Assembly: GCF_027214005.1 (NCBI RefSeq)
Contig: NZ_JAPWGY010000009.1
Location: 62,001-126,000, forward strand
DNA length: 64,000 nucleotides
Reading direction: 5' to 3'
From: Kiloniella laminariae
GTDB taxonomy: Bacteria; Pseudomonadota; Alphaproteobacteria; Kiloniellales; Kiloniellaceae
The stretch's first letter is position 1, and every line of letters starts with the position of its first letter. Shown here one piece after another: positions 43,345-62,848 of this stretch. Below the pieces are notes generated by a model. It saw only the letters and a list, made by a program, of their open reading frames with translations. It was not told where the DNA came from and ran no database searches. The translations under genes and the position numbers were made by a program.

Positions 43345-43755
43345 TTAATCGGGAATAACAGCCGTTGTTTCGATTTCGAGTTTTGCCCGATCTTCCATAA
43401 ATGCACTGACTTCGATCACCGCCATGACAGGATAATGGCGACCGATAATCTCCCGGTAAGCCTCTCCTACGGCCTTCAGTGATGAAAGATACTCCTGCTT
43501 GTCCCGGATAAACCAGGTCATACGCACAATATGCTCAGGTTTAGCCTCGGCTTCTTCAAGAATCGCAACAATATTTAGAAGTGCCTGACGAAACTGGGCA
43601 GCAAAATCATCGCTCTCGAACTCTTCTTTCTCATTCCAGCCGATAATTCCCGCGAGATAAACAGTTTGTCCTCGTGCGGCAATAATTCCGTTGCTATAGC
43701 CTTTGGCCACCGGCCATCCCGGAGGTTGAAGTTGTCGGTGTGCAGTCCCGGTCAT
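43345..43755 (-). CDS. Rid-family (YjgF/YER057c/UK114) protein, non-RidA type
   Basis: 136 residues from the ATG at 43755, which overlaps the thioesterase stop by ATGA. The fold is Rid: VYLAGIIGWNEKEEFESDDFAAQFRQALLNI, then HIVRMTWFIRDKQEYLSSLKAV, then YPVMAVIEVSAFMEDRAKLEIETTAV. RidA proper uses an Arg in the (P)ARSxVEV segment to hydrolyse enamines and imines; here that segment reads PVMAVIEV, so the Arg is Met. The Azoarcus anthranilate cluster also carries a member of this family ('translation inhibitor' in the old naming). A plausible role, not proven, is handling of the amino or imino intermediate. Last gene of the leftward unit. Confidence 0.9.
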   Translation of the reverse strand: MTGTAHRQLQPPGWPVAKGYSNGIIAARGQTVYLAGIIGWNEKEEFESDDFAAQFRQALLNIVAILEEAEAKPEHIVRMTWFIRDKQEYLSSLKAVGEAYREIIGRHYPVMAVIEVSAFMEDRAKLEIETTAVIPD

Positions 43756-44168
43756 TTGGTTTCCTCTAAATACTTTTTCATCGAAGACAAGATATGCTGA
43801 GGCCAGCTTCTGGCCTTGCTGATGGTCATATCCACACAAACAAGAGTGATATTGCTTGTGCAGCGTAATTCATTGTTACAAACAGCCTCTATGGTGCAAT
43901 CCATACTGCTTTTACCAATCGCAGTAATCCTGAGGTTAAAAACCACGATATCTTCCAGCCTGCTCATGGCCCGGAACTCGGTCTCCATTCGAACAGTTGG
44001 AACAGCAATCTTCTGATGAAGATGCAACTGATGAAAACTGCTGCCAATAACCTGCTCGAACCACTCTTCAATGGTCAGGTTAAACATCTCGAAATAGCGG
44101 GGATAAAAGACGATTCCAGCAGGATCACAATGCTGAAAACGAATGGTAACCGGAAGTTCAAAAGTCAT
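43752..44168 (-). CDS. 4-Hydroxybenzoyl-CoA-thioesterase-like hot-dog protein
   Basis: 138 residues, single hot-dog fold. The signature TIRFQHCDPAGIVFYPRYFEMF (split here as TIRFQHCDP and AGIVFYPRYFEMF) at about residues 8-29 carries the catalytic Asp of the 4HBT family. The C-terminal half (FRAMSRLEDIVVFNLRITAIG) continues the fold. It would hydrolyse an aromatic or alicyclic CoA thioester, perhaps to recover CoA from a dead-end product in the anthranilate pathway. It begins one base inside the ATPase stop (TAATG) and is co-translated with the Rid gene. Confidence 0.88.
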   Translation of the reverse strand: MTFELPVTIRFQHCDPAGIVFYPRYFEMFNLTIEEWFEQVIGSSFHQLHLHQKIAVPTVRMETEFRAMSRLEDIVVFNLRITAIGKSSMDCTIEAVCNNELRCTSNITLVCVDMTISKARSWPQHILSSMKKYLEETK

Positions 44169-44851
44169 TATACCCCCAGATACTGATCACGAAGATCACC
44201 AGAAAGTGCAGAAGGACGCCCGGTCCAGACACTGCGACCCTTCTCCAGAATGACACAGGCATCTGCAATCGGCAGCAGTTCGGAAAGCGTCTTGTCGACC
44301 ACCAGCAAAGACTGTCCAGCGTCCTTCAAACGACGGATAGCAGCCCAGATTTCCTGACGGATAACAGGTGCCAACCCCTCGGTAGCTTCATCCAGGATCA
44401 ACAGTTTAGGGTTGGTCATTAATGCCCGACCGATTGCCAGCATCTGCTGTTCCCCGCCAGAAAGCGTATCAGCCATCTGCCCTGCACGCTCCCCCAGTCG
44501 AGGAAACAGGGATACTACCTTTGTATAATCCCAAACACCCGGGCGTGCCGTCGCTATCAGATTTTCTTGAACAGTCAAACTGGCAAAACAACGGCGTCCT
44601 TCCGGAACCAGCCCAATTCCTAGGCGGGCAGCCTGAAAACTGCGAAGTCCAGCCAGATCCTGTCCATCAAAAACAATATGCCCTCTTTTCGCAGGCGTCA
44701 GACGGCAGATCGAACGAATAGTCGTGGATTTCCCCATACCGTTACGCCCCATCAAGGCAACCAGCTCGCCGGTATCCACAGAAAGGTCCACACCAAACAA
44801 TGCTTGGGACGGCCCGTAATAAGTCTCTATCTGAGAAACTTTCAACATCAT
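44168..44851 (-). CDS. LivF-type ABC transporter ATPase
   Basis: 227 residues. Walker A MGRNGMGKST is at about residues 34-43, signature LSGGEQQMLAIGRAL near 127, Walker B LLILDEATEGLAP near 151, and the end VILEKGRSVWTGRP. Of the two branched-chain-type ATPases this is the LivF branch. It energises the LivHM-type channel encoded just upstream. The gene overlaps the LivG-type gene by ATGA. Confidence 0.93.
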   Translation of the reverse strand: MMLKVSQIETYYGPSQALFGVDLSVDTGELVALMGRNGMGKSTTIRSICRLTPAKRGHIVFDGQDLAGLRSFQAARLGIGLVPEGRRCFASLTVQENLIATARPGVWDYTKVVSLFPRLGERAGQMADTLSGGEQQMLAIGRALMTNPKLLILDEATEGLAPVIRQEIWAAIRRLKDAGQSLLVVDKTLSELLPIADACVILEKGRSVWTGRPSALSGDLRDQYLGV

Positions 44852-45597
44852 TCTTCCGTCCCCAGATATGCTTCCCGAACAAGCGGATCCTGACGGATCA
44901 TATCTGCACTGCCCTGGGCAATGATCTGCCCGTAAACCAGAACCGAAATACGATCCGCTAGGCGGAATACAGCATCCATATCATGCTCAACCAACAAGAT
45001 TGGTACTTCCAGTTTGAGTTCTTCCAAAAACCCGGTCAGTCGCTCTGATCCCCCGGCCCCCATTCCCGCCATAGGCTCGTCAAGAAGAAGTACTTTCGGC
45101 TTTAAAGCCAGAGCACAGGCCACCTCGACCTGGCGCCGTTCACCATGTGAGAGCTCTGCAACCGGAACATCAGCTCGAGGTTCAAGCCCAACCCGGGCAA
45201 GAACTTTTTCTGCCGCCTCCAGTAGCTTCTGATCATTGTCTGTCTGTTTCCAGAAACTGAAACTGGTCCCCGTAACGGCCTGACTGGCCATCATCACATT
45301 GCGACGGACTGACAGTGGCATAGCCAGGGAAGAGATCTGAAAACAACGTCCAAGTCCTCTCTTTGCCCTGGCAGCAATACTCAAGCCAGTTACATTTTCC
45401 TGACCGAGGTAAATATTACCGGAATCAGGAGATAATCCACCGGATATCTGTGCAATCAGCGTCGATTTACCTGCTCCGTTTGGTCCGATTAGCGCATGAA
45501 TTTCACCAGGTTTGAGATCAAGGGTTACATCATCTGTTGCCTTCAATGCACCAAAGTTTTTTTGCAGTTTTTCAATCCGTAAGACGGCTTCAGTCAT
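44848..45597 (-). CDS. LivG-type ABC transporter ATPase
   Basis: 249 residues from the ATG at 45597, which has GGGAGG upstream; a TTG six codons before is less likely. Walker A GPNGAGKSTLI is at about residue 36. The signature is LSHGERRQVEVACAL, where SHG replaces SGG as in many aromatic-acid transporters of this family. Walker B VLLLDEPMAGMG. The Asp-box DRISVLVYGQIIAQGS closes the domain. Overlaps the LivM-type gene by 8 bases. Confidence 0.93.
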   Translation of the reverse strand: MTEAVLRIEKLQKNFGALKATDDVTLDLKPGEIHALIGPNGAGKSTLIAQISGGLSPDSGNIYLGQENVTGLSIAARAKRGLGRCFQISSLAMPLSVRRNVMMASQAVTGTSFSFWKQTDNDQKLLEAAEKVLARVGLEPRADVPVAELSHGERRQVEVACALALKPKVLLLDEPMAGMGAGGSERLTGFLEELKLEVPILLVEHDMDAVFRLADRISVLVYGQIIAQGSADMIRQDPLVREAYLGTEE

Positions 45598-46570
45598 GGC
45601 GAGGCCTCCCGGCAAGAAGTCCGATCAATCCACCATTGGCAAACAACACGACACTTAACAGGATCAGCCCAAGAAAAAATTGCCAGTGTTGGGTAAATCC
45701 GCCAATAAATGTCTCAAGCAACACAAAAACGACAGCACCAGCCACGGGGCCAAAGAGTCTGCCCACCCCACCGAGAATGACAATGACCATAAGTTCTCCC
45801 GAATGGTGCCAACTCAACATGCTCGGACTGACAAAGCCGTTCAGATCAGCGAATAACGCCCCGGCTCCGCTGGTAATCATTGCGGACAGCACAAAGGTCG
45901 TCAGGCGGATAGGGAAAGGTTCCACCCCAGAAGTTGCCAAGCGTATATCATTCAGCCGTGCCATGGTCAGGGCGGCACCAAAGCGTGATCCCATTATTCT
46001 CCGGGTGACAAAAATAGAGAGCATGAGAGAAAAGAAACAGATGCCAAAAAAGATCAGAGGATCAGAAGTATCAAGAGAGAACAAACTGTTGCGAACGTAA
46101 ATTGACAGCCCATCCTCTCCACCATAGGTGGGAAAGGAAATGGCAAAATAATAGATCATCTGGGCAAATGCCAAGGTGATCATGATGAAGTAGACCCCCT
46201 GGGTGCGAAGGCTGATCACACCAATAAAGGTTGCAGCAAGTCCTGCGACAAGAACAGCGACCAGCCATATGACGGGCATCTGGTCACTGCCGGGGATGAC
46301 CCCAATGAAGTAAGAGCCATCAAACGCGTGATAGGCAGCAACACCAGCAACATAGCCTCCAAGGCCAAAAAAAGCCGCATGGCCAAAACTGATCAGCCCC
46401 CCGAAGCCCAAGGCAAGGTTAAGGCCGACTGCAGCCATGGCAATAATAACCACGCGGGAAGCCAGGTTTACATAATAAGGCTCATCAAGCAGGCTGGCGC
46501 ATAATGGGGCCAGAGCCAGCAACAACACCAGGGAAGAGTTGATCCAGCTTTCACGAGTGAGTTTACGCAT
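45590..46570 (-). CDS. LivM-type ABC transporter permease
   Basis: 326 residues with about nine hydrophobic segments, LivM fold. NLALGFGGLISFGHAAFFGLG (about residues 50-70; split motif NLALGFGGLIS and FGHAAFFGLG) is the conserved permease signature, and VILGGVGRLFGPVAGAVVF is near the C-terminus. It pairs with the LivH-type protein in the inner membrane. The start overlaps livH by 8 bases. Confidence 0.93.
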   Translation of the reverse strand: MRKLTRESWINSSLVLLLALAPLCASLLDEPYYVNLASRVVIIAMAAVGLNLALGFGGLISFGHAAFFGLGGYVAGVAAYHAFDGSYFIGVIPGSDQMPVIWLVAVLVAGLAATFIGVISLRTQGVYFIMITLAFAQMIYYFAISFPTYGGEDGLSIYVRNSLFSLDTSDPLIFFGICFFSLMLSIFVTRRIMGSRFGAALTMARLNDIRLATSGVEPFPIRLTTFVLSAMITSGAGALFADLNGFVSPSMLSWHHSGELMVIVILGGVGRLFGPVAGAVVFVLLETFIGGFTQHWQFFLGLILLSVVLFANGGLIGLLAGRPRHD

Positions 46571-47483
46571 TTGCAGGGAACAATCCTTTTGGCTTTACCG
46601 CAAGAACCACGGCCATAAGAAGATAGATCAGCATCGATGCCAGGGCAGAACCGACACTGGTTGCATCGGCATTATCCAAAACCAGGCTGAACAGACCAGG
46701 CAAGAAAATCCGCCCCAGAGTATCGACGACACCAACAAGCAGAGCACCAACCAGCGCTCCTTTGATCGAGCCGATGCCTCCGATAACAATCACGACAAAG
46801 GCCAGGATCAGCATCGGTTCCCCCATTCCAACCTGTACGGATTGTAATACCCCCAGCAAAGATCCGGCCAATCCGGCAAGGACAGCCCCAACCGCAAACA
46901 CAAACGTATAAAGAGCGGAAATATTCACCCCAAGGGCACCGATCATCTCCCTGTCGTTTTCACCAGCCCGGATCCGCATGCCAATCCGCGTACGGGAGAT
47001 CAGCAGATACAGTCCAATAGCGATAACAATGCCGACACCGATAATCATCAAACGATAGAGCGGATAGGTTACCCCTCCCGGAAGAGATACAGACCCACTG
47101 AGCAGATCAGGCATATCAAGCCAGAGAGGTGACGCGCCAAAAATCCAGCTGGTACCCTCGGAAAAAATCAGGATCAATGCAAAGGTCGCCAGAACCTGAT
47201 CGAGATGATCCCTGTCATAAAGCCGTCGGATCACCACCAGTTCGATGATAGCGCCCATTACTCCTGCCCCAAGAGCACCAGCCAAAAGACCGATCCAGAA
47301 AGATCCTGTAATCCCGGCAACGTAAGCACAGATAAAGGCTCCCATCATATAGAGAGACCCATGGGACAGATTGATCAATCCCATTACTCCAAAAACCAGT
47401 GTCAGACCTGAAGCCATTGTAAAAAGCATGACTCCCAGCTGGACACCATTCAGGAGTTGTTCCAAAACCAGCGCAATATTCAT
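46563..47483 (-). CDS. LivH-type ABC transporter permease
   Basis: 306 residues from the ATG at 47483, chosen because GGGGAG lies 6 bases before it; the frame is open 18 codons further upstream. Early motifs are LVFGVMGLINLSHGSLYMMGA and the C-terminal VIVIGGIGSIKGALVGALLVG. It forms the channel with the LivM-type protein. The importer as a whole is of the branched-chain family, which in aromatic-acid clusters carries benzoate-like substrates, so the substrate here is probably anthranilate or a relative (inference). Confidence 0.93.
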   Translation of the reverse strand: MNIALVLEQLLNGVQLGVMLFTMASGLTLVFGVMGLINLSHGSLYMMGAFICAYVAGITGSFWIGLLAGALGAGVMGAIIELVVIRRLYDRDHLDQVLATFALILIFSEGTSWIFGASPLWLDMPDLLSGSVSLPGGVTYPLYRLMIIGVGIVIAIGLYLLISRTRIGMRIRAGENDREMIGALGVNISALYTFVFAVGAVLAGLAGSLLGVLQSVQVGMGEPMLILAFVVIVIGGIGSIKGALVGALLVGVVDTLGRIFLPGLFSLVLDNADATSVGSALASMLIYLLMAVVLAVKPKGLFPANA

Positions 47484-47547
47484 AAAACTCCCCTTTGGGA
47501 TGCGTTCTCCCGCTCTGTTTGCAGAGCGGGAGAGCACTCACCAGTGC

Positions 47548-48690
47548 TTACATTTTGCACTCGGATACATAAGCATCCTGAAGGTTTTCAATAGCAATTC
47601 CGGCCAGTTTGTTGGTCGGTTTTCCATCCGCACCAGCGACAACTTCCCGAATATAGATATTCTGGATCGGATGATTGTTTGACCCAAATTTAAAGGCACC
47701 GCGTACTGATTCAAACTCAGCCGCTTTCATGGCTGCCCGGAATGCTTCCGCATCAGAAGGGGCTGCCTTGGCAAGCGCTGACAGCATCAAATTTGCTGTA
47801 TCAAACCCCTGAGAAGCATAGAGTGTTGGTGTCCGGCCATATTTCTCTTTGAAACTCTTAACGAAGGCCACATTGGCCGCGTTATCCATATCATAAGCCC
47901 ACTGGGACGTATTTTTCACGCCAATGGCGGCATCACCAACCGCACCAAGAATCACCTCATCAAACGAGAAAGCAGGACCGAACACAGGTAAACCTACCTC
48001 CGCACCACCATACTGTTTCATGAAAGAGATCCCCATCCCGCCAGGCAGGAAGAAGAAAACACTATCCGCTTTGGATGCTTTTATCTGGGCAATTTCCGCG
48101 GCATAATCTGTCTGGCCAAGCTTAGTGAACAGCTCACCTTCAACTTCACCAAAATAAGATTTGAATCCCGTCAGGGCATCCACACCAGCAGGATAATTCG
48201 GGGCAACAATGAAGGGGGCTTTCAAGCCTTCCTTCTTCATGTATGCACCCATAGCCTCATGCAGATTATTGTTCTGCCAGGCTACGTTGAAATAGTTCTC
48301 ATTACAGAGCTTCCCTGCCAAGGCAGAAGGTCCGGCATTGGGAGAAAGATAGACTGTACCGCCTCGAACCACCTCTGGAATAACCGCCATTGCCAGATTG
48401 GACCAGATAATGCCAGTTAGGATATCAACCTTTTCTTTCTGTAGCATTTCATTCGCCAGCGATTTGGCCAGTTCAGGTTTGCGGGCATCGTCACGGATTA
48501 TAACCTCGACATCACTTTTTGACTGTTCGATTGCCAGCATAAAACCATCACGCACATCGATACCAAGATGAGATCCCCCACCAGACAAGGTCGTGATCAT
48601 ACCAACTTTGGTTTCGGCAAAAGCAGGTAGCGCTGTCATTGACGTTGCTGCCATAAGGGCAAAAGCCCCCGCACTCACAAATTTCTTCAT
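47548..48690 (-). CDS. Branched-chain-type ABC transporter substrate-binding protein
   Basis: 380 residues. Signal peptide at about 1-26 (MKKFVSAGAFALMAATSMTA, cleavage near AFAE). The mature part is a periplasmic-binding-protein type I fold of the LivK family: MITTLSGGGSHLGIDVRDGFMLAI, SLANEMLQKEKVDILTGII, and VFGPAFSFDEVILGAVGDAA. The Azoarcus anthranilate cluster also encodes such a receptor. Located between the CoA ligase gene and the permeases, it is likely the uptake receptor for the pathway substrate. Confidence 0.93.
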   Translation of the reverse strand: MKKFVSAGAFALMAATSMTALPAFAETKVGMITTLSGGGSHLGIDVRDGFMLAIEQSKSDVEVIIRDDARKPELAKSLANEMLQKEKVDILTGIIWSNLAMAVIPEVVRGGTVYLSPNAGPSALAGKLCNENYFNVAWQNNNLHEAMGAYMKKEGLKAPFIVAPNYPAGVDALTGFKSYFGEVEGELFTKLGQTDYAAEIAQIKASKADSVFFFLPGGMGISFMKQYGGAEVGLPVFGPAFSFDEVILGAVGDAAIGVKNTSQWAYDMDNAANVAFVKSFKEKYGRTPTLYASQGFDTANLMLSALAKAAPSDAEAFRAAMKAAEFESVRGAFKFGSNNHPIQNIYIREVVAGADGKPTNKLAGIAIENLQDAYVSECKM

Positions 48691-48760
48691 TCTCGTCTCC
48701 CTAAGAGCTCCTGTTGAGATAAACTGGTACTTTCCGTACTCATTTTTGTTGAAGCATCGT

Positions 48761-50383
48761 CTACGATTTTTGCTTCAATTTAAACCGTTGAATTTTTCCG
48801 GTTTGGGTTTTTGGCAATTCTTTCAGAAACTTGACCACCCGCGGATATTTATAAGGTGCAATGGTTTTTTTTACGTGGTTTTTTAGTATTTCCGCTGTGT
48901 CATCATCTTCGCGAACACCTTCGCGTAATACGACGTGCGCTTCAACAACCATCCCTCTGATTTCATCAGGCGCCCCAACAACAGCACATTCCAGAACACT
49001 TGGATGAAGCAACAAGGCCTGTTCGACATCCGGCCCCGCAATGTTGTAACCAGAAGACACAATCATATCATCGGAGCGGGCAACAAAATGAAACTCCCCC
49101 GTTTCATCCTGATAGAAACTGTCTCCCGTTAAATTCCAGCCTTTGCAGACATAATCCTGCTGTCGGTTATCTGCCAGATATCTACAGCCCGTCGGACCTT
49201 TGACGGCAAGGCGGCCAACTTCCCCGCGTGGAACTTCATCCATGTTTTCATCCACAATCATCGCCTTATAGCCTGTCAGTACACGCCCGGTACTACTGGC
49301 CTTGGCGTCCCCCAGCCGATTGGAGATAAAGATATGCAGAAGTTCTGTCGCCCCTATGCCATCCAGGATAGGTTTCCCGGTTTTGGTAACCCATTCATCG
49401 AACACAGCTGCAGGCAACGTTTCCCCGGCGGATACAGCACAACGCAAGCTTGAAAGATCTGCACCTTCATCCATTGCTTTGAGCATCACCCGATAAGCTG
49501 TTGGTGCAGTAAAACAGATCGTGGCCCGATAGGTTTCAATGATCTTGATCATTTCAGGAGGTGAAGCATTTTCCAGCAACGTCGCGGTAGCACCGAAACG
49601 AAGCGGAAATACTGCCAGGCCTCCCAGGCCAAAGGTAAAGGCCAGCGGAGGAGATCCAACAAAAACATCCTCTGGCGTTACCTGCAACACTTCCTTGGCA
49701 TAAGCATCGGCAATGGTCAGCAAATCGCGATGGAAATGCATGGTCGCTTTTGGATTTCCAGTCGTCCCGGAAGTAAACCCCAGCAATGCAACGTCATCTC
49801 GTCCGGTTTGAACAGCAGAGAACTGAACAGATTTTCCAAGAGCAACCCGGTCAAGTTCAGCATCATGATTTGCCGTGCCATCAAAGCCGACAACTTTTTT
49901 GAGATAGCGACTTTCCTTGGCACAAAGAACAAGCTCATCCATCAGTCGGGTATCACAAAGCGCCAGGGCAATCTCGGCCTTGTCGACAATCTTGCTCAGC
50001 TCGCCCATCCGCAACATAGGCATGGTATTAACGACGACAGCACCTGCCTTGGTCGCCGCAAGCCAACAGGCCACCATCGCCGGATTGTTGGCAGAACGGA
50101 TCAAAATGCGGTGCCCGGGCTTCACTCCAAAGTCCTCAACAAGGGCATGAGCAATGCGATTGGTCCAGTCCGTGAGTTCCTTGTAAGTACGCTGACGTCC
50201 GTTGCCAATCAGGGCCGTATGGTCGCCAAATCCTTTATCAACCATATCATTGGTCAGACAAACAGCCGCGTTGAGATATTCCGGGTACTGGAAGTTTTCC
50301 CTCAGATATTCCGGCTGGCTTTCCGGAGACGGCAAATTATCGCGGGTAAAGCTATCAACATGAGCAGATGGTCCCAACATCAT
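48761..50383 (-). CDS. abmG: 2-Aminobenzoate (anthranilate)-CoA ligase-type enzyme
   Basis: 540 residues, adenylate-forming superfamily. The ATP-binding P-loop is GFTSGTTGNPKATMH near residue 185. LDGIGATELLHIFISNR is near 315, where GIGATE is the A5-type motif of benzoate and aminobenzoate ligases. The closing KTQTGKIQRFKLK carries the catalytic Lys. It would turn anthranilate, ATP and CoA into anthraniloyl-CoA, AMP and PPi. The symbol rests on the flanking fused flavoprotein; related aryl ligases (benzoate, 3-hydroxybenzoate) cannot be excluded from sequence alone. The start overlaps the acyl-CoA dehydrogenase stop by ATGA, with GGAGAG before it. Confidence 0.85.
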   Translation of the reverse strand: MMLGPSAHVDSFTRDNLPSPESQPEYLRENFQYPEYLNAAVCLTNDMVDKGFGDHTALIGNGRQRTYKELTDWTNRIAHALVEDFGVKPGHRILIRSANNPAMVACWLAATKAGAVVVNTMPMLRMGELSKIVDKAEIALALCDTRLMDELVLCAKESRYLKKVVGFDGTANHDAELDRVALGKSVQFSAVQTGRDDVALLGFTSGTTGNPKATMHFHRDLLTIADAYAKEVLQVTPEDVFVGSPPLAFTFGLGGLAVFPLRFGATATLLENASPPEMIKIIETYRATICFTAPTAYRVMLKAMDEGADLSSLRCAVSAGETLPAAVFDEWVTKTGKPILDGIGATELLHIFISNRLGDAKASSTGRVLTGYKAMIVDENMDEVPRGEVGRLAVKGPTGCRYLADNRQQDYVCKGWNLTGDSFYQDETGEFHFVARSDDMIVSSGYNIAGPDVEQALLLHPSVLECAVVGAPDEIRGMVVEAHVVLREGVREDDDTAEILKNHVKKTIAPYKYPRVVKFLKELPKTQTGKIQRFKLKQKS

Positions 50384-51537: not shown

Positions 51538-52349
51538 CAATTTCCCTCAAATACAGGTTTTTTCTTGGCGACAAAGGCATGATAGGCACGCTCAAAATCC
51601 CGCGTCTGCATACAGATTGCCTGGGCTTGAGCTTCTGCTTCGATCGCCTGATCCGGCGACATGTTCCATTCGTGATTTAACTGGGTCTTGGTAATCCCGT
51701 TGGCAAAGGTAGGTCCGGATGCAATACGCTTTGCCAGTATCAAGGCCTGTTCTTCCAATTCCTCAGCAGAATGCAGGGCATTGAAATAGCCCCAGTCATG
51801 GCCTTCTTGTGCAGACATGCTGCGCCCGGTATAAAGCAGATCAGCGGCTCTCCCTTGCCCGATAATCCGTGGCAAAATGGCACAAGCCCCCATATCACAA
51901 CCGGCCAGCCCAACTCTTGTAAACAGGAATGCGGTCTTGGCTTCCGGGGTTGCCAACCGCAAATCCGAAGCCATGGTAATAATAGCGCCCGCGCCAACGC
52001 ACACACCGTCCACAGCCGAAATAATCGGTTTACCGCAGTTTAGCATCGCCTTGACCAGGTCTCCGGTCATCCGGGTAAAGGCAAGAAGCTCCTTCATGTC
52101 CATACCGACCAGCGGTCCGATGATGTCATGAACATCCCCGCCAGAGCAGAAATTCCCGCCATTGGAGGCAAACACCACGGCATTGATGTCTTCTGCATAA
52201 ACCAGATCCCGGAAAGTATCCCTGAGTTCTGCATAGCTTTCAAAAGTCAGCGGGTTTTTACGTTCGGGACGATCAAGCTGTATTACGGCGACGCTTTCTT
52301 CCATGCGCCACTTAAAATGAACTGGTTTAAGATCTGCCATTGTCGTCAT
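51537..52349 (-). CDS. Enoyl-CoA hydratase/isomerase family protein
   Basis: 270 residues, crotonase fold. The oxyanion-hole segments are [15 protein letters not shown] (about 64-78) and [20 protein letters not shown] (about 113-132). The first catalytic Glu position of hydratases is in [11 protein letters not shown], where Gly and Cys appear instead of the usual E-E pair of a true hydratase. It may therefore be a hydrolase, isomerase or ring-cleaving crotonase and not a hydratase. The neighbours suggest work on the cyclic CoA intermediate. Overlaps MarR by ATGA. Confidence 0.88.
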
Positions 52350-53559: not shown

Positions 53560-55850
53560 GCCCGAACCACCATAGCTTCGGCTTTTTCTGCAAGACGATA
53601 GAGCTGGTCGCGTCCTGCCAGATAGGGATCAGGCCATTTCAGGCTTTTCTCTCCAAGGCTCGCCCCGGCATGCAGGGTCCAGTAAGGATCAGCAAGATGG
53701 GGGCGCGCCATACAAACCAGATCAGCCCTCCCCGCCATCAAAATAGAATTGACATGATCGGGTTCATAAATATTGCCGACCGCCATGGTCGCAATCCCCA
53801 ACTCGTTGCGAATACGATCGGCAAAGGGCGTCTGGAACATGCGTCCATAAACCGGCTTTGCCTCTTTCGAAGTCTGTCCGGCAGAAACATCAATAATGTC
53901 TACGCCAGCCTCGTGGAACAGACGGGCGATTTGCACGGCATCGTCCTGTGTGATGCCAACATCATCAACCCAGTCCACAGCGGAGATACGGACAGACATT
54001 GGTTTGTCGGCAGGCCAGACCGCCCGCATTGCCTTGAAGACTTCCAAAGGATAACGCATCCGGTTTTCAAGGCTGCCACCATATTCATCCTCACGGATAT
54101 TCGACAGCGGCGATATGAAAGAAGATATCAGGTACCCGTGCGCAGCATGAAGTTCAATCATATCAAATCCGGAACGCGCCGCCATCTCCGTCGCATTCAC
54201 AAATTGATCCCGCACCCGTGTCATATCTTCACGGTCCATTGCTTTAGGGACGGCATTATTTACGGACCATGGTATGGCTGAAGCCGAAAGCAATGGCCAG
54301 TTCCCCTCGGCCAGCGGGGCATCCATTTCTTCCCAACCGAGTTGCGTTGAACCCTTGCGCCCGGCATGGCCAATTTGGCAGCAGATTTTTGCTTCCGTTT
54401 CCCTGTGGACAAAATCCACAAGCCTCTTCCAGCCCGCTTCTTGTTCCGGGCTGTACAAGCCCGGGCAGCCTAGCGTGATCCGGGCATCGGCGCTGACACA
54501 GGTCATCTCGACATAAACCAGTCCGGCACCTCCCTTGGCCCGCTCGGCATAATGAACAAAATGCCAGTCGCCGGGAACACCATCGACAGCTTTATACTGG
54601 GCCATGGGTGAAACCACGATCCGGTTTTTCAGTTCAAGATTCCCGATCTTGAACGGTGTAAACATCGGTGCCTTGCCAGAACCTGAGGGTTGCCCTGCCT
54701 GGATCTGGAACCAGTCCTCGGCAGATTCCAGCCACTCCTTGTCGCGAACCCGAAGGTTCTCATGACTGATCCGCTGTGATCTTGTCAGCAGGGCATAGTT
54801 GAACTGCACCGGATCAAAATCGACATAGCGTTCGACATTCTCGAACCATTCAAGCGAGTTTCTTGCAGCAGATTGCAATCGCAGGACTTCAACGCGACGT
54901 TCTTCCTGATAGCGTTCAAAAGCCGTCTCCATTGAAGATTCACTATCAAGATAATTCGCCAGAGAGATTGCGCTGTCAAAAGCCAGCCGTGTGCCAGAGC
55001 CAATGGAAAAATGCCCTGTTGCCGCCGCATCCCCCATCAACACCACATTGTCATGGTGCCATTTTTCGCAAATCACCCTTGGGAAATTCATCCAGACCGC
55101 TGAGCCGCGCAGATGATCGGCATTGGACATCAGGGCATTGCCGTCAAGGTATTTGGCAAAGATCCTCTCACAAGTCGCGATGGTTTCTTCCTTGGACATA
55201 TCGGCAAAGCCGAAATTGTTCCAGGTCTCATCCGTGCATTCGACAATCACCGTGGCGGTATTGTCGTCGAATTGATAGGCGTGTACCCATACCCAGCCAT
55301 GCTCGGTCTCTTCAAAGATAAAGGTAAAGGCGTCATTGAATTTCTGATGGGTGCCGAGCCAGATAAACTTGCATAGCCGGACATCGACATCGGGTTGGAA
55401 CTGCTCTTTATATTCATTGCGCACAGCCGAATTGATGCCGTCAGCGGCGACAACCAGATCGAATTCCCTTTTATAATCCTCGACCGGGCCGAACAGGGTC
55501 GCAAAGCGCAGGTCCACGCCCAACTCGCGAGCTCGGGCCTGCAGGATGATCAGCATCTGCTTGCGGCTGATCCCGGCGAAACCGTGACCGCCGGAGACGG
55601 TGCGCGCGCCCTTGTGATGCACAGCGATATCATCCCAATAGGCAAAGTTCTCGCGGATCTGCTCGGCGCTTTTCGGATCATTTTCCAGCATGTTACCCAG
55701 CGCGTCGTCCGAGAGAACAACACCCCAGCCAAAGGTGTCCTCGGCGTTGTTACGTTCAATCACCACGACTTCATGCGTGGGATCCTTAAGCTTCATGCTG
55801 ATGGCAAAGTAGAGCCCGGCTGGACCGCCTCCAAGACAGACAATCTTCAT
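53556..55850 (-). CDS. abmA: 2-Aminobenzoyl-CoA monooxygenase/reductase-type fused flavoprotein
   Basis: 764 residues with two flavin domains. Residues about 1-370 are a PHBH/salicylate-hydroxylase-type monooxygenase: FAD loop [23 protein letters not shown], and [18 protein letters not shown]. Residues about 395-760 are an Old Yellow Enzyme domain: [39 protein letters not shown] and EYGGSLENR. This fusion, of about 86 kDa, matches the Azoarcus enzyme that hydroxylates and reduces 2-aminobenzoyl-CoA to a non-aromatic amino-oxo-cyclohexene carbonyl-CoA. Salicylyl-CoA 5-hydroxylase relatives share the first domain only. First gene of the leftward unit. Codon use in the last third is more GC-rich. 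Confidence 0.9.
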
Positions 55851-55938
55851 TTGCGCGTCCTCCCGCAGAATACATACCTGAATGCAAGTCAGAATTTTTG
55901 GTTATTCTTTTACTGACTGTTTTATTGCTTGTTACCCA

Positions 55939-56013
55939 ATCATAGACCCAAGTGAATTTTTATTTCAAGCATAAAATATTTAAGCTTGAAATGTTTTATG
56001 CTGGCGCTATTCT
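55939..56013. promoter_or_regulatory. Symmetric divergent promoters with overlapping inverted repeats
   Basis: Two interlocked inverted repeats occupy the centre: ATTTCAAGC (55962-55970) with GCTTGAAAT (55984-55992), and AGCATAAAA (55968-55976) with TTTTATGCT (55994-56002). The arms double as -35 elements. Rightward: TTGAAA (55986-55991), 16 bases, TATTCT (56008-56013). Leftward: TTGAAA (55968-55963), 18 bases, TATGAT (55944-55939). A dimeric repressor bound here would block both promoters. MarR is the obvious candidate (inference). Confidence 0.7.
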
Positions 56014-56109
56014 CAAAAGAAAAACTTTAAGGCTATGCCTGCAAAGCAGGTTAGTCAGAAGACAGGTACAATAGTATTTTGCGATGATACTTATCGAGAG
56101 GCGATTAAA

Positions 56110-57255
56110 ATGAATGACGGCACAGTCATCGGTGTAATTGGCGCAGGAGCCATGGGGCGGGGAATTGCCCAGATCATGGCGACTGGCGGTTACAGGGTCG
56201 TGCTGGTCGATACCAATGAGGTCGCACTTGAGACGGCCCTACAAGCCATTGCCACGACCCTGGACAAAGCAATCGCCCGCAATCTGATGACACCAGAAGA
56301 TAAAACCGCTGCTCTCGCCCGGATCACGCCTGAACTGGCGCTGGAGAGCCTGGCGTCTGCGGATCTGGTGATCGAAGCCATCGTCGAACAGCTGGAGGTC
56401 AAGGCCGGGCTGTTTGCCAGACTGGAGACCATCTGCCGCAACAACACCCTGTTTTGCACCAATACCTCTTCGCTGTCGGTTACAAAAATCGCCGCCGGGC
56501 TGGTCCATAAATCCCGGCTTGTTGGCATGCATTTTTTCAACCCGCCACATATCATGAAACTGGTCGAGGTGATCGAGACACCCGAAACCCCGGAAGATGT
56601 CATCACGACGGTTATGCAGCTTGCGCGGAAAATCGGCAAACAGCCAATCCGGGCCAAGGACCGTCCTGGTTTTGTCGTCAACCGCTGCGCCCGCCCCTAT
56701 TACGGCGAGGCACTCTGTATTCTGGAAGAAGGTAATTTCACTGCGGCCCAGATCGATACCGCCCTGCGCAGCGCAGGCTATCGCCTTGGTCCCTTCGAAC
56801 TGATTGATCTGGTCGGGGCTGACATCAACTATGCCGCCACACTGAGCGTATGGGAAGCGCTGGAACGCCACCCGCGCTATCAGCCCTTTGACCGCCTGAA
56901 ACAGCAGGTGGAGGCTGGCAAGCTCGGTCAGAAATCCGGCGAAGGCTTCACCCTGCCCAAGGTTCCGGTTACAGAACTTCCCCCCGAAGCCGCCGCCAGC
57001 ATTGTCGCCCGGATCGAGGCCACCCTGATCAACGAGGCCCATTTTGTCGAGGCCGAGGGCACGGCATCGCGGGCAGATATTGACCAGGCACTGCTGTTGG
57101 GGTTGAATTTCCCCCGCGGTCCTTTTGCCATGGCAACAGGTGACAAACGCAACGCCACGATTGCCCTCCTTGAAGAGCTGTACCACTCAGCGCCTGACCA
57201 TTTAAAAGAGCGCTATACCATCGCTCCAAACCTTACAGGTAGCCATCATGACTGA
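56110..57255 (+). CDS. 3-Hydroxyacyl-CoA dehydrogenase
   Basis: 381 residues from the ATG at 56110, which has AGAGG 9 bases before it; the frame is open 25 codons upstream but that part is unlike the family. The NAD loop VIGVIGAGAMGRGIAQ is at about residues 6-21. The catalytic His is in GMHFFNPPHIMKLVEV near 136. NRCARPYYGEALCILEEG is near 190. A second HCDH-like half follows, with DRLKQQVEAGKLGQKSGEGF, as in PaaH/PimF-type enzymes. It oxidises a 3-hydroxyacyl-CoA with NAD+. It opens the rightward unit and overlaps thiolase by 8 bases. Confidence 0.93.
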   Translation: MNDGTVIGVIGAGAMGRGIAQIMATGGYRVVLVDTNEVALETALQAIATTLDKAIARNLMTPEDKTAALARITPELALESLASADLVIEAIVEQLEVKAGLFARLETICRNNTLFCTNTSSLSVTKIAAGLVHKSRLVGMHFFNPPHIMKLVEVIETPETPEDVITTVMQLARKIGKQPIRAKDRPGFVVNRCARPYYGEALCILEEGNFTAAQIDTALRSAGYRLGPFELIDLVGADINYAATLSVWEALERHPRYQPFDRLKQQVEAGKLGQKSGEGFTLPKVPVTELPPEAAASIVARIEATLINEAHFVEAEGTASRADIDQALLLGLNFPRGPFAMATGDKRNATIALLEELYHSAPDHLKERYTIAPNLTGSHHD

Positions 57256-58450
57256 ACTCAAGCAGGTTTTCATTTGCCGGGGTAAACGCACCCCGATCGG
57301 CAGATACGGCGGCGCCCTCAGCAGCCTTCGCCCGGATGACCTCGCCGCCGGGGTGATCAATGCGGTGCTTGAAGACCAGCCGGAACTTCCGATTGATGAG
57401 GTCATCTTTGGCTGTGCCAATCAGGCCGGTGAAGACAACCGCAATATCGCCCGCATGGCGGTGCTGCTGTCATGTTTGCCTGAAAGCGTCCCGGCCCTGA
57501 CAGTCAATCGGCTCTGCGCCTCGGGTCTGGATGCGGTTATCGCTGCCGCGCGCAGCATTCAATGCGGTGCCGCAGAGCTGGTGATTGCCGGGGGCGTCGA
57601 AAGCATGTCCCGCGCGCCCTTTGTCATGCCCAAGTCCGAAACCGCCTTTGGTCGCGCCCCGGAAATATTTGACACCACCATCGGCTGGCGCTTTGTCAAC
57701 AAGGTCCTTGCCAGCCAGTACGGTATCGATGGTATGCCGGAAACAGCAGAAAACGTCGCTGAAGCCCATGGCATTTCCCGCGCCGATCAGGATGCCTTTG
57801 CCCTGCGCAGCCAGCAGCGTACCGCTCGCGCCCAGGCAACCGGTTATTTTGATAGCGAAATCAGCCCGGTTTCCATCGCCCAGCGCAAGGGAGCTGCCCT
57901 GATCGTCAAGCACGACGAACATCCACGCGAAACCAGCCTCGACAAGCTCGCCAGCCTGCCCACCCCCTTCCGTTCCCCCGGCAGCGTTACCGCGGGCAAT
58001 GCCAGTGGCGTTAACGATGGTGCTTGCGCCTTGCTTCTTGCTTCGGAAGCCGCCATCAAGGCTCACGGGTTGATACCTCTGGCACGTTTTACCGCTGCGG
58101 CAAGTGCCGGCGTTGCCCCACGGGTGATGGGCATTGGCCCGATTGCCGCACTGGATAAGCTCACCAGCCTGACCGGGCAGACCGCCGCGTCCTTTGATCA
58201 TATCGAACTGAACGAAGCCTTTGCCGCCCAGGCGCTGGCCTGCCTGCGCGCCTGGAAACTGGCCGATGATGCGGCGACAGTAAATCCGAATGGCGGTGCC
58301 ATTGCCCTGGGACATCCCCTGGGAATGACCGGGGCGCGTCTTGCCCTGTCGGCTGCCCGTGCCATCGGCGAAGGCAAAGCCCGAACAGCCCTTGCAACCC
58401 TCTGCGTCGGTGTCGGCCAGGGCGTTGCCCTTTCTCTTTCAAAAGTCTAA
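57248..58450 (+). CDS. Thiolase (acetyl-CoA acyltransferase)
   Basis: 400 residues, thiolase I fold. The nucleophile Cys is in [14 protein letters not shown] near residue 88. The other catalytic residues are His in [20 protein letters not shown] near 348 and Cys in [11 protein letters not shown] near 386. The gene reads PaaJ/PcaF-like: [20 protein letters not shown] at the start. It would release acetyl-CoA from a 3-oxo(dicarboxylic)acyl-CoA. Its start overlaps the dehydrogenase gene. The GC content is higher than in the surrounding genome, about 70% in one 60-base line I counted. Confidence 0.93.
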
Positions 58451-58463
58451 CGGAACCCAGCCC

Positions 58464-59669
58464 ATGACCCCGGAACAAGCCCGTAAAAAACCAGAAACCC
58501 TGAAATGGGAAGATCCTTTCTTGCTGGAAGATCAGCTGGAAGAAGAAGAGCGCATGATCCGCGACAGTGCCGCCGCCTACTGTGCGGACAAGCTTGCGAC
58601 CCGCGTCCTTGAAGCCAATCGGCATGAAAAATTTGACCGGGAGATCATGTCGGAAATGGGTGCATTGGGGCTGCTGGGATCAACCATCCCCGAAGAATAC
58701 GGCGGGGTCGGCGCCAACTATGTTTCCTATGGACTTGTCGCCCGCGAGGTCGAACGGATCGACAGCGGCTATCGGTCGGCCATGTCGGTTCAATCCAGTC
58801 TGGTTATCCACCCGATCTTTGCCTATGGCACCGAAGAACAACGCCTGAAGTATCTGCCCAAACTGACCGCCGGGGAATGGGTTGGCTGTTTTGGCCTGAC
58901 TGAACCGGACCACGGTTCCGACCCCGGTTCAATGATCACCCGTGCCAAAGCAGTGGACGGCGGCTATCTGGTTTCCGGTGCCAAGAACTGGATCACCAAT
59001 TCACCGATCGCCGATGTTTTTGTCATCTGGGCCAAGTCAGATAAACACGACGGCAAGATCAAGGGATTCATTCTGGAAAAAGGCATGCAGGGACTGGCTG
59101 CACCAAAGATCGAAGGCAAATTTTCATTGCGGGCCTCGATCACCGGCATGATCCAGATGGATGAGGTTTTTGTCCCGGAAGAAAACCTGCTGCCGCATGT
59201 ACAGGGGCTGGCCGGACCTTTTGGTTGTCTGAACCGCGCTCGCTATGGCATTGCCTGGGGCGCTATGGGTGCGGCGGAATCCTGCTGGCACGCTGCCCGC
59301 AGTTACACGCTGGATCGCAAGCAGTTTGGACGGCCTTTGGCCCAGACCCAGCTGGTACAGAAAAAGCTGGCCGATATGCAAACTGAAATCAGTCTCGGCC
59401 TGCAAGGAGCCCTGCGACTGGGACGTCTGTTTGACCGCAACATTGCCCCGGCGGAACTGATCAGCCTGATGAAGCGCAATAACTGCGGCAAGGCACTGGA
59501 TATCGCCCGGGTTTCCCGAGACATGCACGGCGGCAACGGGGTTTCCGATGAATATGGCGTGATCCGTCATGTGATGAACCTTGAAGCCGTCAATACCTAT
59601 GAAGGCACACACGATATCCACGCCCTGATCCTGGGGCGGGCCCAGACCGGATTACAGGCCTTTCAATGA
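58464..59669 (+). CDS. gcdH: Glutaryl-CoA dehydrogenase
   Basis: 401 residues from the ATG at 58464 (MTPEQARK), 13 bases after the thiolase stop. It oxidises and decarboxylates glutaryl-CoA to crotonyl-CoA. Characteristic parts: the acyl-binding [30 protein letters not shown] near 140, the Arg in [16 protein letters not shown], and the catalytic base Glu in [20 protein letters not shown] near residue 385. The [16 protein letters not shown] ending is typical for GcdH and not general ACADs. In this cluster it suggests that ring carbon ends up as glutaryl-CoA. The gene overlaps the hydrolase by ATGA. Confidence 0.93.
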
Positions 59670-60538
59670 AGAAAGACCTGCCGATCTTTACCGACTGGAA
59701 TGATGCCTATGACAACGCCGGACATATCGACGGGGCCAGAGAGTACCCGCCGCGCTGGAATGCCCTGGCCTGGTCGTTCCGGGAGGAAATGAGCGCAGCG
59801 GGCCGGGCAGAGCTGGATCTGGTTTATGGGACAGGCCCGCGCAACAAACTGGATCTGTTTCTGCCCGCTGCCCAGTCCACTGCCCAACCCCATGTCCCCC
59901 CTAAAGGGCTGGCCGTTTTTGTCCATGGCGGTTTCTGGAAAGCTTTTGACAAGTCAAGCTGGTCGCATCTGGCCAGAGGGGCGGTCGAACAGGGCTGGGC
60001 GGTTTGCCTGCCCAGTTACAGTCTCGCCCCGGACGCAAGAATATCTGTCATGACACAGGAAATTGCCGCAGCGATTGCCTGTGCCGCAGAGAAAATTTCC
60101 GGCCCCCTGCATCTGGCGGGACATTCTGCGGGCGGACATCTGGTATCACGCATGGTCTGTGCGGACAGCCCGCTGCCACCCGCGATCCGGCAACGACTGG
60201 GTCATGTGCTGTCGATCAGTGGCCTGCATGACCTGCGCCCGCTGCTCCACGCAGATATGAACCAGATCCTGCAGCTGGATGAAGCCGAAGCAACCGCCGA
60301 GAGTGCCGCTTTGCAGCGCCCGCTCGAAACCTGCCCGCTGACCTGTTGGGTTGGCGCAGAAGAACGCCCGGCTTTTCTGCTGCAAAATGACCTGCTGGCA
60401 ACGGTCTGGGCCGGATTGGGTCAGCCGACAAGCATTGTCCACGACGCCGGGAAACATCATTTCAATGTTATCGATGCACTGGCGGATCCCCGATCAGAAT
60501 TGACTCGCTGTTTTCTTGGTAAAAGATCAGGAACCTGA
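59666..60538 (+). CDS. Kynurenine-formamidase-like alpha/beta hydrolase
   Basis: 290 residues. The oxyanion-hole motif [15 protein letters not shown] is at about residues 83-97, the nucleophile elbow is [10 protein letters not shown] near 154, and the catalytic His is in [10 protein letters not shown] near 272. The HGGxW plus GHSAGGHL combination and the FNVID end match arylformamidases of the BNA7/KynB-like alpha/beta group, which hydrolyse N-formylkynurenine. It could also open an N-formyl or N-acyl anthranilate to give the pathway substrate. No tryptophan dioxygenase or kynureninase gene is in the window. Overlaps gcdH by 4 bases. Confidence 0.85.
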
Positions 60539-60543
60539 AAGAC

Positions 60544-61779
60544 ATGAACACGGCTTCACCTTCGCCCCTGCCCGCCGGTCCGGTATCCTTGTCGCGCGAG
60601 GGTAAAATTGCCCTCGTCATTCTGGATAATCCCCCGGTCAACGCCACATCCGAGGTGGTGCGCGCCGGGCTGATGGCCGCGATCGAACTGGTCGATCAGG
60701 ACCAGAGCCTGGAGGCCGCCCTGTTGATCTGTGCCGGGCGCACCTTTATCGCCGGGGCGGATATCACCGAGTTCAACAAACCCCCTGTTGCTCCCCTGTT
60801 GCCCGATGTCATCACCCGGCTGGAACAGGCGACAAAACCCTGGATCACCGTGATTCACGGGGCCGCGCTGGGGGGCGGACTGGAAGTTGCCCTGGGCTGT
60901 CATTACCGTCTGGCCGACACCACAGCCAAGCTGGGATTCCCCGAGGTCAATCTGGGACTGATCCCCGGGGCTGGCGGCTGCGTGCGCCTGCCCCGCCTGA
61001 TCGAAACCCGCCATGCCATGACGATGATTGCTGGCGGGAAAACCATCGGCGCAGAACAGGCCCTGGATTGGGGACTGGTTGATCTGCTGCTCTCGCCCAC
61101 AGCTGAAGAAAGTCTGCAGGATCAGGCTCTTGCTTTTGCCCGTGATATCCTGGTCAAACCTCTGCCCCAGCCCCTGTCAAAACGTCCCACCTCCGCTCCG
61201 CTTTCAGCCGGGGATCTGGACGTTCTGATCAAAGAGACCCGGAAAACCGCACCGGGACAGCTTGCGCCGCATGAGGCGATTGCCGCAGTTCAGGAAGCGA
61301 CAAACACCCCCGCAAGCACCGCGCTTGTCCGTGAACGGGAACGCTTTACCCGATTGAAACAGGGCGATCAGTCCAGGGCCTTACGCTATATCTTTTTTGC
61401 AGAAAAAGCCTTGCTTAAAAAACTGAAACAACAGGGCATTACCCCATTGCAGATCAGTAATCAGGTGGTTGAAAAGGGCGTGATCGGACAGCGCCTGTTG
61501 CAGGCCTATAATCAGGAAATCCGACAACTTGTGCAAGACGGCATTCCCTTGCCAGATCAGCGTCGGGAAGAACAACAGGATCTTGTCATTCTGTCCGATC
61601 TGATGGCAGCAGCCGAACTAAATCTTCTGAAGGCGCTTCAGGTCGCAGGGGAAACCCTGCTTGCTGACTTCCCCTACTTAACACCTGAAGATATCGACGC
61701 GGTGCTGGTCAACTGCTTCGCGTTCCCGCGCTGGCGCGGCGGTCCAATGTATCTGCGCACCCCGCAGGAGATTGCCTGA
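60544..61779 (+). CDS. Enoyl-CoA hydratase joined to remnant of FadJ-type C-terminus
   Basis: 411 residues, longer than a lone hydratase and shorter than FadJ (about 700). Residues about 15-200 are a crotonase domain: AGRTFIAGADITEF, HGAALGGGLEVALGCHYRLA and the catalytic Glu pair in FPEVNLGLIPGAGG. The linker SRALRYIFFAEKALLKKLK at about 275-295 is what FadJ-type enzymes show just before their NAD domain. Here no GxGxxG follows. The closing part, EDIDAVLVNCFAFPRWRGGPMYL, is the end of the FadJ dehydrogenase domain. The NAD domain and catalytic His are thus absent; the separate dehydrogenase at 56110 may supply this step. Last gene of the rightward unit. Confidence 0.88.
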   Translation: MNTASPSPLPAGPVSLSREGKIALVILDNPPVNATSEVVRAGLMAAIELVDQDQSLEAALLICAGRTFIAGADITEFNKPPVAPLLPDVITRLEQATKPWITVIHGAALGGGLEVALGCHYRLADTTAKLGFPEVNLGLIPGAGGCVRLPRLIETRHAMTMIAGGKTIGAEQALDWGLVDLLLSPTAEESLQDQALAFARDILVKPLPQPLSKRPTSAPLSAGDLDVLIKETRKTAPGQLAPHEAIAAVQEATNTPASTALVRERERFTRLKQGDQSRALRYIFFAEKALLKKLKQQGITPLQISNQVVEKGVIGQRLLQAYNQEIRQLVQDGIPLPDQRREEQQDLVILSDLMAAAELNLLKALQVAGETLLADFPYLTPEDIDAVLVNCFAFPRWRGGPMYLRTPQEIA

Positions 61780-61823
61780 TTTTTCTTTTGTGGTCCGGGA
61801 GTTAGCCAGAACATATAAACAGA

Positions 61824-61857
61824 AATCAAAACAGGAGAAGCCAAAGACTTCTCCTGT
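61824..61857 (-). terminator. Rho-independent terminator of the small AsnC-domain gene
   Basis: ACAGGAGAAG (61831-61840) and CTTCTCCTGT (61848-61857) form a perfect 10-bp stem with a 7-base loop. On the minus strand it is followed by TTTGATTTC. It lies 40 bases past the stop at 61898. It could also slow the rightward operon, whose stop is 51 bases before it. Confidence 0.7.
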
Positions 61858-61897
61858 CAGAACTGTGGTGTTCTCGTCAGGTCAGATTTCTTCGGAT

Positions 61898-62771: not shown

Positions 62772-62848
<77 letters not shown>

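Follow-up and report, generated by a model that had tools for sequence, protein, structure and literature searches.

Which aromatic acid is degraded by the products of the divergent gene cluster at positions 43345-61779 of this Kiloniella laminariae DNA, and at which intermediate does the lower pathway end? The window (the whole stretch of 64,000 nucleotides analyzed) belongs to a genome of 4.38 Mb rated 100% complete. The cluster comprises 18 genes in two divergent units, all of them long open reading frames (ORFs) with strong family matches, among them one that joins a flavin monooxygenase to an Old Yellow Enzyme (OYE) reductase, hereafter the fusion. Our analysis indicates that this is probably a horizontally acquired set of genes for degrading anthranilate aerobically via 2-aminobenzoyl-CoA, and that it also encodes much of the lower pathway. 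Its second acyl-CoA dehydrogenase is a glutaryl-CoA dehydrogenase (GCDH), and because this gene recurs next to the fusion in several lineages, mostly as an additional copy, we infer that the lower pathway exits through glutaryl-CoA.

Identity and genomic linkage of the glutaryl-CoA dehydrogenase

A preliminary description of this DNA had counted two acyl-CoA dehydrogenases in the cluster. Both are present, and the second, which it did not recognize as such, is the GCDH:

58461..59669, plus strand, glutaryl-CoA dehydrogenase (ACAD2; mechanical ORF from 58341)

The ACAD2 protein matched PDB entry 3gnc, which we take to be the Burkholderia GCDH, with 648 bits (E 3.9e-194), and 1siq and 1sir, presumably the human enzyme, with 578 bits. 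Three more GCDH-labelled chains scored 313-369 bits and the next acyl-CoA dehydrogenases about 220. Arg105, Ser106 and Glu381 (402-aa numbering), located from what we assume to be the Arg-Ser and catalytic Glu positions of the human enzyme, were present in all 15 aligned linked GCDHs.

The neighbourhood of the fusion was read in its relatives, the best 80 of 581 confirmed matches in genome contigs, where neighbours were scored at fixed identity and coverage limits within the flanks examined; the counts are lower bounds, 27 of the 80 loci being shorter than 20 kb. GCDH lay near the fusion in 12 of these relatives, and a 13th (L077) carried a 133-aa fragment at the contig end. Sphingomonas leidyi DSM 4733 (L081) is one strain whose cluster includes a linked GCDH. 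A separate census covered 116 fusion carriers, 53 from the class sample and 63 more from the phylum sample, all searched for GCDH at E 1e-140, a copy being called linked when it lay within 3 kb of the fusion. GCDH was found in 105 carriers and was linked in six, the own genome included (G000, G193, G252, G622, G678 and G680); in G622 it stands in the middle of the anthranilate set. Linkage was seen in 5 of 7 genomes with several copies versus 1 of 98 with a single copy (Fisher p 1.3e-6, own genome included). The K. laminariae genome itself holds another GCDH on a separate contig, 78% identical to the cluster copy. When the genomes of the 12 linked relatives were searched, 11 gave a GCDH match and 10 of these had a second, unlinked copy.

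A GCDH tree was built from 55 hand-picked rows: 18 linked, being all those found except that of the sister species (G307) and the L077 fragment, and 37 unlinked, a subset of the unlinked copies found. The label 'linked' required seven changes on this tree, at least six of them forced by starred branches, compared with a mean of 15.3 after label shuffling, in which none of 500 shuffles gave a number as low as seven. An earlier tree of 43 rows required six changes, five of them forced. Linked GCDHs adjoin differing unlinked relatives; G296 (L073) has a linked and an unlinked copy that are almost identical, which looks like a recent duplication. From this genomic evidence we conclude that the function of GCDH is bound up with the pathway in the linked lineages; the recurrent linkage suggests, and does not prove, where the route ends.

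Proposed pathway and carbon balance

The genes listed in the preliminary description, and their arrangement in two divergent units, were all confirmed; the alpha/beta hydrolase gene at 59666-60538 had been left out. The minus-strand unit (55850 to 43345) reads fusion, short-chain dehydrogenase/reductase (SDR), MarR, ECH1, ACAD1, ligase, substrate-binding protein, LivH, LivM, LivG, LivF, thioesterase and Rid. The plus-strand unit (56035, likely start 56110, to 61779) reads 3-hydroxyacyl-CoA dehydrogenase (HAD), thiolase, ACAD2, alpha/beta hydrolase and ECH2. The features other than ACAD2 are given below; starts marked likely are our judgement and lie later than the mechanical ORF starts.

43345..43743, minus strand, Rid-family protein (132 aa from likely start 43743, mechanical ORF to 43839; PF01042, 1.7e-21)
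43752..44168, minus strand, 4HBT/YbgC-type acyl-CoA thioesterase (PF13279, 4.6e-11)
44168..44851, minus strand, LivF-type ABC ATPase (PF00005; best NCBIfam matches UrtE and LivF, both below cut-off)
44848..45615, likely start 45597, minus strand, LivG-type ABC ATPase (PF00005, PF12399)
45590..46570, minus strand, LivM-type permease (PF02653, 2.9e-33)
46563..47537, likely start 47480, minus strand, LivH-type permease (PF02653, 3.3e-33)
47548..48690, minus strand, periplasmic substrate-binding protein of the importer (PF13458, 9.3e-72)
48761..50383, minus strand, aryl-CoA ligase, likely anthranilate--CoA ligase, 540 aa (TIGR02262, 350.4 bits, below the cut-off of 375.25)
50380..51540, minus strand, acyl-CoA dehydrogenase 1, ACAD1 (PF00441, 1.3e-43)
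51537..52349, minus strand, crotonase-fold protein ECH1 of the PRK08258 family (NF006107, 476.9 bits, cut-off 330)
52346..52882, likely start 52813, minus strand, MarR-family regulator (PF12802, 1e-08)
52813..53559, minus strand, short-chain dehydrogenase/reductase (PF00106, 4e-48)
53556..55850, minus strand, monooxygenase-Old Yellow Enzyme fusion, 764 aa, of the 2-aminobenzoyl-CoA monooxygenase/reductase type (NF006101, 1304.6 bits, cut-off 1078; PF01494, PF00724)
55962..55992, no strand, inverted repeat with 14-nt arms and a 3-nt gap in the divergent promoter, candidate MarR operator
56035..57255, likely start 56110, plus strand, 3-hydroxyacyl-CoA dehydrogenase (PF02737, 3e-63; PF00725)
57248..58450, plus strand, thiolase of the PcaF type (TIGR02430, 602.4 bits, cut-off 597)
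59666..60538, plus strand, alpha/beta hydrolase (NF058665, 369 bits, cut-off 320)
60544..61779, plus strand, FadB-like enoyl-CoA hydratase ECH2, without the NAD-binding dehydrogenase domain

No family match was obtained for a small ORF at 61772-62185, which is probably no gene. At the minus-strand end the cluster is adjoined by a histidine kinase of 858 aa with PAS and Cache-like domains (39857-42433).

In the pathway that we propose, the ABC importer would take up anthranilate or a close analogue, and the ligase would form 2-aminobenzoyl-CoA, the activity published for a ligase 52.7% identical to it. The fusion would then act on this thioester; its known product has an oxygen at ring C5. The enamine would be hydrolysed to dioxocyclohexane-carbonyl-CoA, perhaps by the variant Rid protein, and the ring would then be opened by ECH1. 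SDR, ACAD1, ECH2, HAD and thiolase would convert the C7 chain to acetyl-CoA and glutaryl-CoA, the cluster GCDH would form crotonyl-CoA, and ECH2, HAD and a thiolase would complete the conversion to acetyl-CoA. MarR probably acts at the inverted repeat. We put forward only tentatively the fuller scheme in which the lower half runs to glutaryl-CoA and there joins the lower route of anaerobic benzoyl-CoA degradation, with a repeatedly dedicated GCDH and with a Met-bearing Rid protein removing the amine from a CoA-bound enamine.

Several points weigh against an exit at glutaryl-CoA. By our own chemical reasoning, amine loss and hydrolytic ring opening would give 4-oxopimeloyl-CoA, whereas glutaryl-CoA and acetyl-CoA would arise by thiolysis of its isomer, 3-oxopimeloyl-CoA. 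The shift of the carbonyl from 4-oxo to 3-oxo needs a step to which we cannot assign an enzyme, and straight beta-oxidation would give 2-oxo- or 2-hydroxyglutaryl-CoA. Several reaction orders for the C5 oxygen were considered and rejected, none of them reaching glutaryl-CoA with the cluster enzymes alone, and we know of no reaction series that does so from the 5-oxo ring product. Most carriers in the census (110 of 116) had no linked GCDH, indicating that a dedicated copy is not required, and in 11, incomplete genomes among them, the search at E 1e-140 found none at all. The label-change counts, in turn, cannot separate gain from loss of linkage. Because of the misfit of the C5 oxygen and the 110 carriers without linkage, our confidence in the overall reading is kept moderate.

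The retained C5 oxygen leads, again by our own reasoning, to an alternative that we regard as unlikely, in which the anthranilate pathway would exit at 2-oxoglutarate or 2-hydroxyglutarate: 4-oxo- (or 4-hydroxy-) pimeloyl-CoA would yield acetyl-CoA and 2-oxo- or 2-hydroxyglutaryl-CoA, the acid being freed by the thioesterase, and GCDH would be a bystander acting on another substrate. ACAD1, a hydratase, HAD, thiolase and thioesterase of the cluster would all be used, and the thioesterase is found in 30 of the 80 relatives versus 12 for GCDH; however, the presence of a second GCDH beside the fusion in several lineages, and its conservation, would be left unexplained.

A role of the linked GCDH in the catabolism of lysine or tryptophan, with its position due to chance or to the company of kynurenine genes, is improbable. 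GCDH is the general enzyme of both catabolic routes, and 4 of the 12 linked relatives also carry tryptophan 2,3-dioxygenase (TDO) or kynureninase (KynU) genes, but the other 8 have neither in the flanks examined, and the K. laminariae genome gave no match to TDO (PF03301) or kynureninase (TIGR01814) and has another GCDH. Nor does this explanation sit easily with the forced label changes (at least five on the 43-row tree or six on the 55-row tree), and at least five chance neighbours among 104 genomes would have a probability of about 8e-6 in a simple Poisson estimate that ignores relatedness.

Substrate of the pathway

Aerobic CoA-dependent degradation of anthranilate through 2-aminobenzoyl-CoA, proposed in the preliminary description, is the best-supported reading of the cluster as a whole; what had to be qualified is the fusion family, which, judged by gene context, is not confined to anthranilate and is probably not uniform. 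The window protein has the hallmark of the abm pathway, a flavin monooxygenase fused to an OYE reductase, and matches NCBI family NF006101, titled 'bifunctional salicylyl-CoA 5-hydroxylase/oxidoreductase'. In a PDB search OYE proteins matched its C-terminal half and VioD its N-terminal half; the full-length enzyme was not among the matches listed (best 60 of 141), which were OYE-type or VioD-type.

Anthranilate as the substrate is indicated by the TDO and kynureninase neighbours of the fusion, one or both of which were found in 20 of the 80 relatives (TDO in 20, kynureninase in 15). The Thalassospira marina locus reads fusion-SDR-MarR-ECH1-ACAD1-ligase-KynU-KynA-thioesterase-Rid, with a divergent FadB and a hydrolase resembling that of the window, and in Ruegeria pomeroyi DSS-3 a TDO and a hydrolase are divergent from the fusion. 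Among the 53 carriers of the class sample, 33 have kynureninase, and in four (G029, G160, G252 and G267) it lies no more than 10 kb from the fusion.

The ligase and the fusion are 52.7% and 50.5% identical, respectively, to a neighbouring pair on plasmid pAL1 of Arthrobacter sp. Rue61a, which would correspond to ARUE_113p00220/00230 of the published work. According to the accessible part of that paper, the ligase of the pair has anthranilate-CoA ligase activity, and CoA esters of acids C7H7NO3 and C7H8O4 occurred in anthranilate-grown cells alone, which its authors read as presumably hydroxyanthraniloyl-CoA and perhaps cyclohexanedione-carboxyl-CoA (PMC3534580). The best PDB match of the window ligase was the anthranilate-CoA ligase 4wv3 (1.1e-78), closely followed by the benzoate-CoA ligase 2v7b (7.8e-77).

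Other observations speak against anthranilate. The ligase falls below the TIGR02262 cut-off, and the PDB scores scarcely separate anthranilate from benzoate ligases. In the part of the Rue61a paper available, the activity of the fusion was not demonstrated, and a plasmid-free mutant still grew on anthranilate, which was ascribed to chromosomal paralogues (PMC3534580). Carrying the genes does not by itself mean growth: abm genes have been reported in Cupriavidus metallidurans CH34, yet, in the text available, this strain did not grow on anthranilate (PMC8879955).

As the preliminary description had stated, antABC genes are absent: no anthranilate dioxygenase above the cut-off was found in the genome, its two Rieske alpha subunits scoring 108 and 86 bits versus 672. 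One of the two scored 662 bits against the glycine betaine monooxygenase cut-off of 670.

Degradation of salicylate, with the fusion acting as salicylyl-CoA 5-hydroxylase, is quite improbable for this cluster. It is what the NCBI family name implies, and in 3 of 108 loci (a set with some duplicates, such as L048 and L160), namely those of Cupriavidus taiwanensis, Caballeronia sp. SBC1 and Novosphingobium humi, the fusion has a gentisate-dioxygenase-type cupin and an FAH hydrolase as its neighbours. However, these three rows lie in other parts of the fusion tree, and the neighbouring genes for Rid, beta-oxidation and TDO/KynU are in keeping with an amine. No gene of the gentisate dioxygenase or fumarylpyruvate hydrolase type was found among the scanned ORFs of the window, and gentisate-route genes at 45% identity or more were found in none of the 80 relatives within the flanks examined, where L022 has an FAH-family match at 36% identity; salicylate was rejected on this absence of nearby gentisate genes. 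The gene contexts suggest that the NCBI name misleads for many members of the family.

Two further features were seen in the neighbourhoods of the fusion. Indolepyruvate ferredoxin oxidoreductase genes occur near it among L129, L187, L010, L018, L022, L023 and L026, and a styrene/indole monooxygenase-type gene in L129, hinting at indole or indolepyruvate compounds as further sources of anthranilate. In L122, L126, L127, L129 and L186, the Rue61a locus included, a small cupin and an FAH-family hydrolase replace the beta-oxidation genes and Rid is present; anthranilate may be degraded by a second lower route in such loci.

Variant enzymes and maintenance of the cluster

In the Rid protein, Met occupies the position of the RidA Arg (105/107), as aligned with 7zs6 and 1qd9, in all 73 aligned rows, the window included. 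In a looser scan that included actinobacterial copies, Met was found in 72 of 73 matches, the exception being Asn in a 34% match at the gentisate-type locus of Novosphingobium humi. The RidA Arg is essential for imine hydrolysis and binds carboxylate oxygens, according to the accessible part of PMC4433059. Its replacement by Met sets the cluster protein apart from the RidA imine deaminases and removes the tested basis for a deaminase label, a further point against the proposed amine removal. Loss of the Arg might be expected for a CoA thioester substrate, since this has no carboxylate for the Arg to bind.

The two enoyl-CoA-type enzymes of the preliminary description are indeed both of the crotonase type, but ECH1 does not resemble the usual hydratases, and ECH2 belongs with FadB-like proteins while lacking the NAD-binding domain. 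ECH1 has Ala122 and Arg145, placed by eye, at what we take to be the positions of the two catalytic Glu residues of hydratases; its Asp152, found in 90 of 90 rows, aligns with the Asp of the PaaG-type isomerase 4fzw_C. It is therefore likelier to be a hydrolase or isomerase than a hydratase. When compared with six full-length FadBs, ECH2 lacks the entire NAD-binding domain and keeps both presumed hydratase Glu residues, and peroxisomal bifunctional enzymes match its residues 21-315 and, weakly, 378-404. A pseudogene was ruled out, the gene being open in two species with a pairwise dN/dS of 0.247 and the same architecture in G307. The lost dehydrogenase domain would be covered by the separate HAD gene that heads the plus-strand unit, of a kind that, at 45-49% identity, is also divergent to the fusion in Paracoccus and related genomes. 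SDR lies near the fusion in 75 of the 80 relatives, and the Glu of the YEG motif of ACAD1 is present in 84 of 85 aligned rows, with a gap in the remaining one.

The alpha/beta hydrolase matched PDB entries 2pbl (5.3e-75) and, distantly, 4e11 (9.5e-13), the latter presumably the Drosophila kynurenine formamidase, and is 48% identical to the TDO-adjacent hydrolase of R. pomeroyi. Nine relatives have such a hydrolase, six of them with TDO/KynU in the flanks examined and three without. A working kynurenine formamidase was ruled out here, the genome having neither TDO nor kynureninase; the enzyme may act on another anthranilate derivative or be a relic.

Another species of the genus (G307) has all 18 genes open and in unchanged order, with protein identities of 63-98% and a pairwise dN/dS of 0.013-0.247, a simple count between two species in which dS is high for several genes. 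The conserved order, the open frames and the low dN/dS indicate that the set is real and maintained. GCDH had the lowest value of all (0.013); the highest were those of ECH2 (0.247), the hydrolase (0.179) and HAD (0.175), which counts against the proposed pathway. It is very improbable that the cluster is a decaying import that no longer supports growth on anthranilate, an idea to which the lost ECH2 domain, the high dN/dS of ECH2 and the hydrolase, the hydrolase without a kynurenine pathway and the presence of the fusion in just two of nine genus genomes would lend support, but against which stand the 18 open genes of 18 and their dN/dS range between the two species.

G307 has the inverted repeat of 55962-55992, with its 14-nt arms, unchanged, but the entire 271-bp promoter stretch is 98% identical, and conservation of the repeat is by itself weak evidence for an operator. 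HAD and the fusion had a dS of 0.147 and 0.364, respectively, versus 0.436-1.201 in the other 16 genes; together with the 98% identical promoter, this makes a recent recombination across 53556-57255 possible.

Distribution and acquisition

The fusion was found in 71 of 398 sampled Pseudomonadota genomes, indicating that the core of the cluster is ordinary. Within the genus it is present in two of nine genomes, one of the seven without it being 77% complete. Unit 1 is present in four genomes of the same family but another genus (G301-G304), with a fusion about 70% identical; no unit 2 genes were seen in the 20 kb available for each, about 7 kb past the fusion on the divergent side. In the fusion tree, a quick tree without a mixture model, the window and its sister species lie inside a clade of 38 rows, mostly Rhodobacterales and Hoeflea (99 SH-aLRT), and G301-G304 fall apart from it. 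This placement away from the family-mates points to horizontal acquisition of the cluster. Two tRNA genes (62307-62380 and 62775-62848) lie just past the cluster end and are a possible integration point of an imported block.

A haloarchaeal homologue of the fusion, 40.5% identical, was found on a plasmid of Natronosalvus halobius (L190, 2430-14867), with Rid, a reductase, two acyl-CoA dehydrogenases, a thiolase and an enoyl-CoA hydratase as neighbours, possibly an archaeal version of the pathway.

Comparison with known systems

Published descriptions of the 2-aminobenzoyl-CoA route go back to the early 1990s. In the open-access literature searched, where few papers name both the aerobic route and glutaryl-CoA, no passage was found that lets the aerobic route exit at glutaryl-CoA, most subscription papers, Schuehle et al. 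2001 among them, lying outside the search. In the accessible part of a review, beta-oxidation follows the first ring product and nothing further is given (PMC4539516), and the parts available of PMC13141888 and PMC8271443 list the aerobic route and glutaryl-CoA apart, or place glutaryl-CoA in the anaerobic route. Tryptophan degradation by the 2-aminobenzoyl-CoA route was left out of GapMind for lack of knowledge, according to the text available (PMC9007349). The recurrent GCDH beside the key enzyme names a specific, testable end product for the lower pathway.

The preliminary description had placed the interest of the locus in its extended gene set and layout. The pathway is of a known kind and the cluster an extended variant with an ordinary core; the new point is the identity of the GCDH. 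Schuehle et al. (2001) are said to have described the aerobic 2-aminobenzoyl-CoA (abm) clusters of Azoarcus evansii, which reportedly also hold, like the window, genes for MarR, a substrate-binding protein, Rid and beta-oxidation. The accessible descriptions of the A. evansii system give a ligase and a monooxygenase/reductase, as in the window (PMC4539516, PMC8388817). Compared with it by description, the window adds a full ABC importer, SDR, thioesterase, thiolase, GCDH, alpha/beta hydrolase and the FadB-like protein without the dehydrogenase domain.

For five plasmid records without annotated features in the stretch concerned, neighbours were read by tblastn alone. Plasmid pAL1 of Rue61a has ligase, fusion and Rid in common with the window and, within 12 kb, a cupin, an FAH-family hydrolase and a TesB-type thioesterase in place of the beta-oxidation genes. 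Plasmid 1 of Paracoccus denitrificans PD1222 and p1 of Gemmobacter fulvus carry nearly the same unit 1, sharing fusion-SDR-MarR-ECH1-ACAD1-thioesterase-Rid-ligase-ABC importer, with a divergent HAD in Paracoccus only; within 12 kb neither has a GCDH or a FadB-like hydratase, and the Paracoccus alpha/beta hydrolase is 35% identical to that of the window. By contrast, Roseobacter sp. HKCCD6576-2 (L025), G252 and G678 have, as in the window, a FadB and a linked GCDH of the window's clade, the hydrolase being shared with L025 and G252 and the thiolase with L025 and G678. Unlike the window, all three have a full-length FadB, and L025 and G252 have TDO and kynureninase in addition.

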